From the NCBI RefSeq assembly GCF_017876545.1, contig NZ_JAGIOD010000001.1, positions 2,170,001-2,234,000 on the forward strand: 64,000 nt of DNA, in the 5' to 3' direction. This DNA comes from Brachybacterium sacelli. GTDB lineage: Bacteria > Actinomycetota > Actinomycetes > Actinomycetales > Dermabacteraceae. The position numbers and the translations under genes were made by a program. Below the pieces are notes generated by a model. The model had not been told where the DNA came from, searched no databases, and saw only the letters and a program-made list of their open reading frames with translations. Positions 2,651 through 57,555 of the stretch are shown piece after piece; position 1 is the stretch's first letter, and the number at the start of each line of letters is the position of its first letter.

Positions 2651-2722
2651 ATTCTAGCCAACTGTTGCGTTCACTGCACTATTTCATCGACTGCAGTTTC
2701 TGTGATCTCGCGGACCTACGAT
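2651..2722. promoter_or_regulatory. Divergent promoter/operator region of the exporter and tetR
   Basis: The minus-strand -10 of the exporter (TAGAAT, plus positions 2651-2656) and the plus-strand -10 of tetR (TACGAT, 2717-2722) flank an unusually A/T-rich stretch. Inside it ACTGCA occurs twice, at 2673-2678 and 2690-2695. An outer inverted pair AACTG/CAGTT lies at 2660-2664 and 2694-2698. This is the natural place for the TetR operator; assigning those repeats to the regulator is inference. Confidence 0.55.
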
Positions 2723-2729
2723 GGGAGCC

Positions 2730-3383
2730 GTGACTGACCCACAGACTTCCCCCGCCCGACCCCTGACGGAGCCGGGCGATGACGACGATCCCGCGACCGA
2801 AGGCCTCGGACTGCGCGAGCTGAAGAAGCGCCAGACCCGCATCGCCATGCACCGCTCCGCGCTCGAGCTCGTCGCCGAGCACGGCTTCGCGCAGGTGACA
2901 GTCGAGATGATCGCCCGGCGCGCCGGGGTCTCCACCCGGACCTTCTTCAACCACTGGACCACCAAGGACGCGGCGGTGCTCGGCGTCATCACGGGCGATT
3001 CGCTCGAGATCAGCGGCCGGCTGCGCGTCGAGCTCGAGGAGCATTCGCCCCGCGAGGCGCTGCGTGCCGTGCTGCGCGACGCACTGACCGCGGTCCCTGC
3101 GGATCCGGAGCTGCGCGACCTGAAGAAGCAGGTGATGGCCAAGGAGCCGCTGCTGCACTCGATCTCCTCCGGCCGTCTCCTCGAGGTCCAGGCCGAGATG
3201 GTCGAGGTGCTCGCCGGGTTCCTGGACGGGGAGGAAGCCCGCACCCGCGCCGTGGTCGCCGTGCAGGTGGGCTTCGCCCTGACCCGCAGTGCGTTCGCGC
3301 TGTCCATGGCCAAGGGCGTCGACCTGCTCGCCGCCTTCGACGAGGTCACCGACCTCTACGACTCGGGAATCATCGAAGCCTGA
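2730..3383 (+). CDS. TetR-family transcriptional regulator
   Basis: 217 residues. The N-terminal helix-turn-helix is clear: VTVEMIARRAGVSTRTFFNH near residues 50-70, after a basic RQTRIAMHRSALELVAEHGF helix. The C-terminal helical region is the ligand/dimer domain. The start is placed at GTG 2730. The in-frame ATG at 2721 lies inside the -10 box TACGAT (2717-2722), and GTG follows that box by 7 bases, as expected for a leaderless transcript. Being divergent from the DHA2 exporter, it probably represses the pump. Its last codon and stop (GCC TGA) are the first bases of a 56-bp tandem repeat. Confidence 0.9.
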   Translation: MTDPQTSPARPLTEPGDDDDPATEGLGLRELKKRQTRIAMHRSALELVAEHGFAQVTVEMIARRAGVSTRTFFNHWTTKDAAVLGVITGDSLEISGRLRVELEEHSPREALRAVLRDALTAVPADPELRDLKKQVMAKEPLLHSISSGRLLEVQAEMVEVLAGFLDGEEARTRAVVAVQVGFALTRSAFALSMAKGVDLLAAFDEVTDLYDSGIIEA

Positions 3384-3520
3384 TCGACGTGCTGTGAGCT
3401 TGCGAGCGGCAGGAGATCAGGTGGGGCGGCAGAGCCTGATCGACGTGCTGTGAGCGTGCGAGCGGCAGGAGATCAGGTGGGGCGGCAGAGCCTGATCGAC
3501 GTGCTGTGAGCGTGCGAGCC
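3377..3520 (+). repeat. 56-bp tandem repeat, about 2.5 copies, beginning at the tetR stop codon
   Basis: Copies begin at 3377, 3433 and 3489; the third stops matching near 3520. Copies 1 and 2 differ by a single base (GAGCTTGCG against GAGCGTGCG). Each unit opens with CCTGATCGACGTGCTG and contains GATCAGG 29 bases later, a 7-bp inverted pair. The TGA stop of tetR is the TGA of the first copy. The same 56-bp period and a related unit recur at 56889-57008, again starting at a gene's stop codon. Confidence 0.93.
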
Positions 3521-3536
3521 GCGCCGACCTCGTCAT

Positions 3537-3593
3537 CGAGATCGACATGGGGACCACTTTGGGCCCCTGAAAGTGGTCCCCATGTCGATCTCG
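3537..3593. terminator. Perfect 24-bp inverted repeat (long hairpin) between convergent genes
   Basis: The arms 3537-3560 and 3570-3593 are exact reverse complements (CGAGATCGACATGGGG at the outer end) around a 9-base GGGCCCCTG loop. It sits between tetR and the convergent gene at 3665, where a two-way terminator is expected. The stem is much longer than a normal terminator and lacks a T tract, so it may instead be a palindromic repeat element. Confidence 0.7.
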
Positions 3594-3664
3594 GTCTGGT
3601 TCCGCGGCCCGGCCGGCCCGCGCCCTTCGAGGTTCCGGCCGACGAGCTCCGCATCGCTGCGGGT

Positions 3665-56873: not shown

Positions 56874-56888
56874 GGCGGGGGCGGGTCT

Positions 56889-57008
56889 CGATCAGCAGTG
56901 CCGGATCGCCTGGTCTCCTACCGGCTCGTTCCTCGCCAGTACGTCGATCAGCAGTGCCGGATCGCCTGGTCTCCTACCGGCTCGTTCCTCGCCAGTACGT
57001 CGATCAGG
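56889..57008 (-). repeat. 56-bp tandem repeat, about 2.1 copies, beginning at the CarD-like stop codon
   Basis: Read on the minus strand, copies begin at 57008, 56952 and 56896. The two full copies are identical except for the first base. The unit opens CCTGATCGACGTACTG and includes GAGCCGGTAGGAGACCAGG. It aligns along its length with the unit at 3377-3520 (CTGATCGACGT(G/A)CTG, GAGC, AGGAGA(T/C)CAGG). Again the gene's TGA stop (57006-57004) is the TGA of the first copy. Confidence 0.93.
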
Positions 57009-57555
57009 CGGCGTCGCCGGTTGCGCCGAGCTCCACCGCACGCTCGGCCGTGTCCTGGAGCAGCTGATCCGCCTCCTCGAGGGTGATCGAACGGGCGATC
57101 GCGATCTCCGCGGCCAGCGGGGCGATCGCCTGCTTGAGCAGGTTGCGCTCGGCCAGGGAGGAGGGGGTGCCGCCCGAGTCGCCGAGGATGCCGCGGATGA
57201 CGTCGATGCGATCGGAGAGCCGGCCCGACTGCAGCTGCATGGTCAGGGACTTGATGCGGTGGGCCCAGGAGGCCTTCTTCGCCGGCGGCTCGATCGGCTC
57301 CGAGAGCTGCTCGACGAGCTCGGCGATCTCCTTCTCCTCGAGCACCGCCCGGAGCCCGATGACGTCCTTGCCGTCGGCCGGCACCGAGATGCGCATCTCG
57401 TCGCCGATGACCTCCATGTCGACGTACTCCCGATCGGTCCCGCGGACGCAGCGGGTGCAGGTGGAGACGATGCGCACCGGACCGTGGACGGGGTGGGTGA
57501 GCACCTCGCCGGGGGACGGGGCAGCGGTGTCGACGGACGCAGTGGCGACGGACAA
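57004..57555 (-). CDS. Second CarD/CdnL-like regulator
   Basis: 183 residues. The N-terminal Tudor-like domain is seen in SPGEVLTHPVHGPVRIVS and EYVDMEVIGDEMRISVPADG, and the helical domain in ASWAHRIKSLTMQLQSG and SSLAERNLLKQAIAPLAAE. It is clearly related to, but far from, the canonical CarD at 42572. A CTRC pair interrupts the loop where CarD touches RNA polymerase. The start is TTG 57555, with GAGGAGG seven bases upstream; no ATG or GTG alternative is near. It may modulate a subset of promoters. The stop lies in the 56-bp repeat. Confidence 0.8.
   Translation of the reverse strand: MSVATASVDTAAPSPGEVLTHPVHGPVRIVSTCTRCVRGTDREYVDMEVIGDEMRISVPADGKDVIGLRAVLEEKEIAELVEQLSEPIEPPAKKASWAHRIKSLTMQLQSGRLSDRIDVIRGILGDSGGTPSSLAERNLLKQAIAPLAAEIAIARSITLEEADQLLQDTAERAVELGATGDAA

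Follow-up and report, generated by a model that had tools for sequence, protein, structure and literature searches.

A candidate mobile mRNA hairpin repeat placed at stop codons in Brachybacterium

Two unrelated genes in a 64,000-nucleotide stretch of the Brachybacterium sacelli genome (RefSeq assembly GCF_017876545.1, contig NZ_JAGIOD010000001.1, positions 2,170,001 to 2,234,000 of the forward strand; this whole stretch is referred to as the window) end inside the first unit of a 56-bp tandem repeat, which raises the question of why a repeat should contain the stop codon of the gene next to it. An initial annotation had proposed a mobile or self-amplifying element of gene 3' ends that may act on mRNA 3' ends, on transcription termination, or as a nucleoid or gyrase site. 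Tandem Repeats Finder recovered both of the arrays it reported, the first with period 56, 2.6 copies, and 98% matches and the second with period 56, 2.1 copies, and 100% matches, the latter 1 nt away from the coordinates given originally. In each array, unit 1 supplies the stop codon, as had been noted: the TGA at 3381-3383 ends a tetR gene, and that at 57006-57004 (minus strand) ends the second CarD-like gene. The units of both arrays share the opening CTGATCGACGTRCTG and a GGAGAYCAG arm and differ in the middle and the spacer. We consider that the repeat is probably a mobile-looking mRNA element that is placed exactly at stop codons and acts where translation ends.

Distribution of the repeat and its position at stop codons

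A pattern search of the source genome (4.87 Mb, two contigs) returned further copies. From an alignment of nine units at six loci, with 27 invariant columns and a mean column identity of 82%, we built a covariance model (R1). Four of these units belong to the window arrays, and their own R1 scores (64.8 to 68.4 bits) carry no weight because they were part of the training set, in contrast to matches elsewhere. In the source genome, R1 produced 31 matches at E ≤ 10; 17 of them had E < 1e-8, and 9 of these 17 were training units.

Across Brachybacterium, R1 matches (E ≤ 0.01) were present in 28 of 38 genomes, with 2 to 51 matches per genome, and there was no match in the other 10. At E ≤ 0.001 and with stricter filters, 28 of the 47 genomes of the family matched, all within one of its six genera, and 0 of the 9 genomes of the five sister genera did. 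In the order, 13 of 297 genomes matched, comprising 11 Brachybacterium genomes and 2 with weak matches that were rejected: no frame of 60 codons stops at the unit, and by inspection they lie inside coding sequence. A stringent pattern, searched in one genome per species for 84,980 species, retrieved 29 stretches, all titled Brachybacterium; this pattern was derived from known units and tests specificity rather than the existence of distant relatives. Rfam gave no match at E ≤ 1 in the five array loci scanned. As far as these sequence searches go, the repeat is a family of short elements with a predicted mRNA structure, so far restricted to Brachybacterium.

With the tetR array as query, no match was obtained in plasmids, and phage records yielded four, all named 'Bacteriophage sp.' (MT835570, MT837856, MT835496, and MT836665; loci L279-L282). 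In these faecal-sample records, the stop is at +4 in the three checked (L279, L280, and L282) of the four. By inspection, L279 and L280 encode Pgi-like and L9-like frames, so that they resemble mislabelled Brachybacterium chromosome.

To describe placement, we assembled 110 arrays with 231 units, consisting of 88 arrays from five genomes (G000, G003, G024, G028, and G037) together with one locus, the best, from each of 22 others; one array cut by a contig end (L076) was excluded. Single units (44 arrays), pairs (35), and triplets (17) prevail, and the largest array has seven units. The periods span 52 to 57 nt, mostly 53 to 57, with one case of 92, and 106 of 121 are not divisible by three. 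Arrays read in the same sense as the gene they end. The TGA at +4 of unit 1 is the in-frame stop of an open reading frame (ORF) of at least 40 codons in 101 of the 110 arrays, and a slightly different rule, also with 40 codons, placed the stop at the same site in 100 of 110. Because GC-rich DNA has long chance frames, we used CTGA sites of the same loci as controls. ORFs of at least 100 codons end at the unit in 96 of 110 arrays, compared with 16.1% of 1374 control sites; with a coding-bias filter and at least 60 codons, the values were 82 of 110 and 7.2%. Among the nine exceptions, six (L051, L146, L159, L160, L162, and L172) have a called stop no more than 8 nt before their first recognisable unit, and three (L048, L155, and L171) are weak matches. 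The expectation that further copies in this genome and its relatives would cluster at stop codons was thus borne out. Later units, which were picked by conserved anchors, keep the TGA position in 87 of 94 cases and mostly keep the basal stem described below.

A choice of CTGA sequences is by itself insufficient to explain the placement, because only 34 of the 350 CTGA sites in the window are stops according to simple gene calls, with 65 intergenic and 251 intragenic; stops are thus 34 of the 99 sites that are either stops or intergenic.

Dispersed bacterial repeats usually sit loosely between genes. Here, the 99 host frames represent 63 gene families with a codon-exact site. Of 20 hosts scanned with Pfam, one (L042) received no name; the names obtained include TetR, CarD, ribosomal L1, L9, and L31, uracil phosphoribosyltransferase, phosphofructokinase, class II aldolase, the acetohydroxyacid synthase small subunit, SBP_bac_5, response regulators, and DSBA-like thioredoxin, among others.

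A predicted hairpin that includes the stop codon of the host

In the mRNA sense strand, the unit is predicted to fold into a single hairpin. In its basal stem (NyCTGATC / GAYCAGrN), the 3' arm of the element pairs with the TGA of the gene and with y, the second position of the sense codon before it. Above this stem, an internal loop with a conserved GA/GA motif and a bulged G lead to a short stem that contains a conserved U.G wobble and then to a second GA/GA motif; the two GA/GA motifs may form sheared pairs. The hairpin is topped by a GNA triloop or a CNNG tetraloop. Folding of seven units returned the basal and inner stems in six.

Base pairs were counted in 102 first units, which were anchored where internal-loop motifs occur close to the model-match ends; 8 of the 110 arrays were unparsed, and the right anchor, being the motif closest to the model-match end, is not fully independent of the model. 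Each position of the basal stem yCTGATC/GAYCAGr and of the inner stem is paired in 77 to 102 of the 102 units, 90 of which have the inner T.G wobble. A reduced set of 93 units omits three doubtful weak matches and six with mis-set anchors. Within it, 92 units keep the GA/GA internal loop with its C-G pair and bulged G, and the apical loop takes the form GAG-GNA-CGA (62 units) or GAG-CNNG-CGA (23 units), counts for which this selection favours well-kept units. Calculated minimum free energies averaged -21.7 kcal/mol in the sense and -14.0 kcal/mol in the antisense strand, the sense fold being more stable in 91 of 93 units. The minimum free energy fold pairs two or all three bases of the stop codon with the 3' arm in 91 of 93 units.

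The pairs co-vary, and this extends to the host gene. Pair 7, in which the base directly past the CAG arm would face the second position of the host's last sense codon, is complementary in 94 of 102 units, compared with 44 expected. With one array per host gene family, the count is 55 of 59 versus 24.5 expected, and none of 5000 shuffles, which leave relatedness uncorrected, reached it. R1 models the pair-7 base as unpaired and therefore could not have selected for this match. In the 93-unit set, pair 7 is matched in 87, and sliding the arm by one or two bases reduces this to at most 44. The inner pair 6 behaves similarly (55 of 59 versus 27.7 expected, one array per host family; 0 of 5000 shuffles), the outer pair 2 changes from T-A to G-C, and in L146, which is off its stop, CTGCGC/GCGCAG replaces CTGATC/GATCAG. 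Compensatory changes are thus found in the predicted pairs, including the one between the last codon of the host and the element.

A size variant occurs at the stop of a DUF5719 gene (L050, G000:C2:748482-748654), where two copies of a 92-bp unit have a much longer inner stem and unchanged apical and internal loops.

The features of the two window arrays are compiled in Table 1. In unit 1 of the tetR array, where the last sense codon is GCC, its middle base C3379 forms the outermost pair with G3421 of the element arm, and the stop codon lies within the basal stem. Downstream of this array, the window contains a long, near-perfect inverted repeat without a T tract (GAGATCGACATGGGGACCACTTT ... 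AAAGTGGTCCCCATGTCGATCTC, 3535-3595). An Rfam scan around the tetR array, with the carD array outside its range, gave sub-gathering matches only, four of them on this inverted repeat, where microRNA families matched with scores far under gathering. Of the 38 genus genomes, 24 have the second CarD-like gene at E < 1e-40; each of these is one of the 28 repeat carriers, and none of the 10 repeat-free genomes has it, a co-occurrence that may be a clade effect alone.

Table 1. Coordinates of the two arrays and their host genes in the window
Feature	Position	Strand	Basis
Host gene 1, TetR-type regulator, 220 aa (locus L035)	2721..3383	+	ORF list; Pfam TetR_N, E 4.4e-12
Array 1, two complete 56-bp units plus part of a third	3377..3519	+	Tandem Repeats Finder; covariance-model matches in units 1 and 2 (training sequences)
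Array 1, unit 1 hairpin	3379..3421	+	Sequence, unit-2 fold, pair counts
Array 1, unit 2 hairpin	3435..3477	+	Fold; model match C1:2173433-2173478 (window 3433-3478)
Array 1, partial third unit, 5' half, ending inside the loop	3489..3519	+	Sequence; Tandem Repeats Finder
Host gene 2, second CarD-like gene (CarD_C, CarD_TRCF_RID), 183 aa	57004..57555	-	ORF list; Pfam
Array 2, two 56-bp units, minus-strand reading	56888..57007	-	Tandem Repeats Finder; model matches (training sequences)
Array 2, unit 1 hairpin	56965..57008	-	Model match 56964-57010; fold
Array 2, unit 2 hairpin	56909..56952	-	Model match 56908-56954

Site occupancy, target choice, and competing explanations

The initial annotation had named copy-number variation between strains as an observation that would support it, and in our comparison of species both copy number and occupancy differ. 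This is illustrated by three host genes. At the second CarD-like gene, 23 loci from the 24 genomes with a strong match were read; two of them (G000 and G008) contain units, and the gene ends in GCC-TGA in 21, GCC-TAG in 1, and GCG-TGA in 1. The site is empty in G009 and G023, the closest relatives of G000 in our trees. These are trees of carD1; a deep split is doubtful in the one built from the region, and only 7 of 33 branches are well supported in the one built from the gene alone, and for this reason no formal count of gains and losses was made. The upp gene is present in 38 genomes, and 30 loci were fetched, of which we read 29; 7 contain units as judged by eye, the unit of G008 is decayed, and G023 has perhaps a relic. 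The 29 ends are GAC-TGA (27) and GAC-TAG (2). For a response regulator, units were found in 6 of 28 loci read (30 fetched); automated counts at the upp and regulator loci run low owing to the strict pattern. The loci read thus show that related species differ in the presence of the element where the gene end is mostly unchanged. At upp genes without the element in G017 and G031 (loci L306/L297), we observed short direct duplications of the gene end that include the stop codon, which are possible scars of insertion and loss.

The element also has a preferred target. With one entry per family, GNC-TGA ends 53 of the 58 NNC-TGA host families, compared with 54 of 119 for other genes (Fisher p 1e-9), where R1's three leading columns mildly favour such ends; NNC-TGA itself ends 58 of 61 host families and 119 of 178 TGA-ending control families. 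The controls were other genes of the window and array loci, excluding loci that contribute many orthologues of a single gene, and they had passed a coding-bias filter from which hosts were exempt. Without family dereplication, and thus with many orthologues, the values were 84 of 95 hosts and 119 of 279 controls, in agreement with the dereplicated result. One position further out, a host G faces an arm C in 63 of 93 units. Moreover, within one genome, units with the same core have arm bases matched to their respective targets, as in L075 (GCC/G) and L131 (GGC/C); the same applies to L101 (GGC/C) and L102 (GAC/T). L093 and L104 are a further case of identical cores with target-matched arm bases. 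CTGA or TTGA occurs again 3' of the array in 79 of 99 cases. Comparison of the gene end with the sequence before the right-hand CTGA, which omits 20 arrays lacking that CTGA, revealed identity above controls at -1 and -3 to -6, fading beyond, in 29 single-unit arrays, and mainly at -1 and -3 in 50 multi-unit arrays.

On these grounds, we propose that the element would insert after GNC-TGA, leaving CTGA at each end, and would then be multiplied by tandem duplication. Its action would be post-transcriptional, at the end of translation: the terminating ribosome would melt the stem, which would refold behind it, and the outcome may be slower termination or reinitiation, or a 3' end shielded from exonucleases, as reported for the hairpins of repetitive extragenic palindromic (REP) sequences in Escherichia coli. 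Of the two parts of the earlier suggestion that bear on this, action at mRNA 3' ends agrees with the signal lying in the mRNA sense strand, the effect itself being our conjecture, and mobility agrees with the patchy occupancy, whereas the search for a mover, which covered the Y1_Tnp and RVT_1 families only, gave no support. None of the 38 genus genomes gave a Y1_Tnp (PF01797) match in a search that was positive for 6 of 14 control genomes, and RVT_1 was detected in 1 of 38 (L278, G037:C1:460837-461511). We therefore rejected a Y1 transposase or reverse transcriptase as mover.

Apart from this lack of a mover, several observations weigh against an mRNA element that acts at the end of translation. 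The element is dispensable, as 10 genomes of the genus have none, and its hosts are of all kinds, with no regulon apparent from their family assignments. Insertion with a short target duplication is only partly supported by the gene-end comparison, as it fits part of the cases. As to the structure, the unit of L045 departs from the described fold, for one of the six folding units 20 of 200 shuffles fold at least equally well, and 15 of 102 units have A.C at the third basal position. Covariation is absent from the pair adjacent to pair 7 (67 of 93 versus 65.6), and the arm mismatches the last codon at L095, at upp in G000 and G021, and at the regulator in G023. The covariation statistics carry the uncorrected relatedness mentioned above, and the match to the last codon could reflect guided insertion instead of selection for RNA function.

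This last point leads to the alternative that survives best, a purely selfish DNA repeat whose 3' arm guides insertion by pairing with GNCTGA, whose hairpin serves movement only, and whose copies at stop codons persist because they are harmless there. It would account for the complementarity of arm and target, the GNC-TGA preference, the target-matched arm bases on identical cores, the second CTGA or TTGA past the array, and the patchy occupancy, and we regard it as possible, at clearly lower probability than an mRNA element. Intergenic CTGA sites outnumber stops in the window, yet at most 3 of the 110 arrays, all weak matches, lie more than 8 nt from any stop; the fold favours the sense strand; and neither a Y1 enzyme nor, outside one genome, a reverse transcriptase was found to move such a repeat. 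A more unusual version of insertion, which we consider rather unlikely, is that the process reads the stop codon itself, on mRNA or on terminating ribosomes, with the 3' arm pairing with the last codon or being copied from it. If true, each new copy would be built to close a stem over the host's own stop.

The remaining functions named in the initial annotation fared less well: that the unit terminates or attenuates transcription, or is a DNA site for a protein such as gyrase or a nucleoid protein, appears very improbable. A GC-rich hairpin at 3' ends would suit them. However, at least four T within 10 nt after the arm occur in only 2 of 93 units, and 34 of 105 arrays have another, distinct GC-rich hairpin in the 130 nt after them, compared with 69 of 1050 coding controls; for these two reasons the unit was rejected as an ordinary terminator. 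A gyrase or nucleoid site is disfavoured because the predicted fold is strand-specific and fits the sense strand.

Taken together, an mRNA element that acts at the end of translation remains the reading that we favour. Dozens of stop-codon hairpins of one design, with empty orthologous sites as controls, form a natural test set in which the effect of structure at a stop codon on termination, mRNA decay, and repeat spread is directly testable.

Comparison with known systems

The closest parallel in actinobacteria is with mycobacterial interspersed repetitive units (MIRUs). According to PMC12548453, these are short tandem repeats, seemingly mobile, that lie at translation signals including TGA; they insert at start codons, and their ORF is coupled with a -4 nt (NTGA) spacing. 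For the senX3-regX3 interval, PMC4213456 describes units of 77 and 53 bp. A MIRU-like origin, in which a small mobile ORF couples the translation of neighbours through overlapping stop and start codons, would be in keeping with actinobacterial tandem units of mostly 53 to 57 bp anchored on TGA, and the tetR unit indeed has AGGAG followed by a GTG mini-ORF. Nevertheless, among units with CGACG and GGAG, ATG or GTG stands 4 to 9 nt after GGAG in just 16 of the 90 units that open an array and in 20 of the 94 that follow, and we rejected the reading as Shine-Dalgarno sequence and mini-ORF because a suitably spaced start is this rare. Most periods, as noted above, are not multiples of three, and the downstream gene is co-directional at 55 and convergent at 51 of the 106 arrays with a called neighbour. 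The features described for MIRUs, a coupled ORF and co-directional neighbours, thus set the Brachybacterium units apart, which lie at gene ends, convergent ones included, and are predicted to pair with the host's last codon; that they are MIRU-like is highly improbable.

REP sequences and the bacterial interspersed mosaic elements (BIMEs) of E. coli, and the Br-REPs of Bradyrhizobium, resemble the family as dispersed hairpins of 3' untranslated regions. The imperfect palindrome, the 3' intergenic location, and the many copies per genome are shared, with just two matches in some genomes. In PMC5082802, which cites Liang et al. 2015 and Khemici & Carpousis 2004, ribosome stalling is reported for REPs at most 15 nt from a stop codon, along with a block of 3'-5' decay by REPs. 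The Brachybacterium stem differs in containing the stop codon. A REP/BIME-type palindrome moved by a REP-associated tyrosine (RAYT, Y1) transposase can hardly be the explanation despite the dispersed hairpins close to gene 3' ends, given arrays that share the orientation of their host gene and the result for Y1_Tnp in the genus and in the control genomes.

Two further systems include stop codons. The bacterial selenocysteine insertion sequence (SECIS) signal is a hairpin; in Brachybacterium, the frame past the UGA continues for a median of 26 codons and its ends are scattered. In Beggiatoaceae, PMC4679880 describes TAACTGA direct repeats that are likewise dispersed and contain stop codons. They differ in having seven-base units that are mostly oriented toward start codons and no particular predicted RNA structure. 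In our searches of open literature, judged by titles and the beginnings of abstracts, codon-exact placement and a host-matched arm seem to be undescribed, and by its predicted features the family would fall with the dispersed hairpin repeats of 3' ends.
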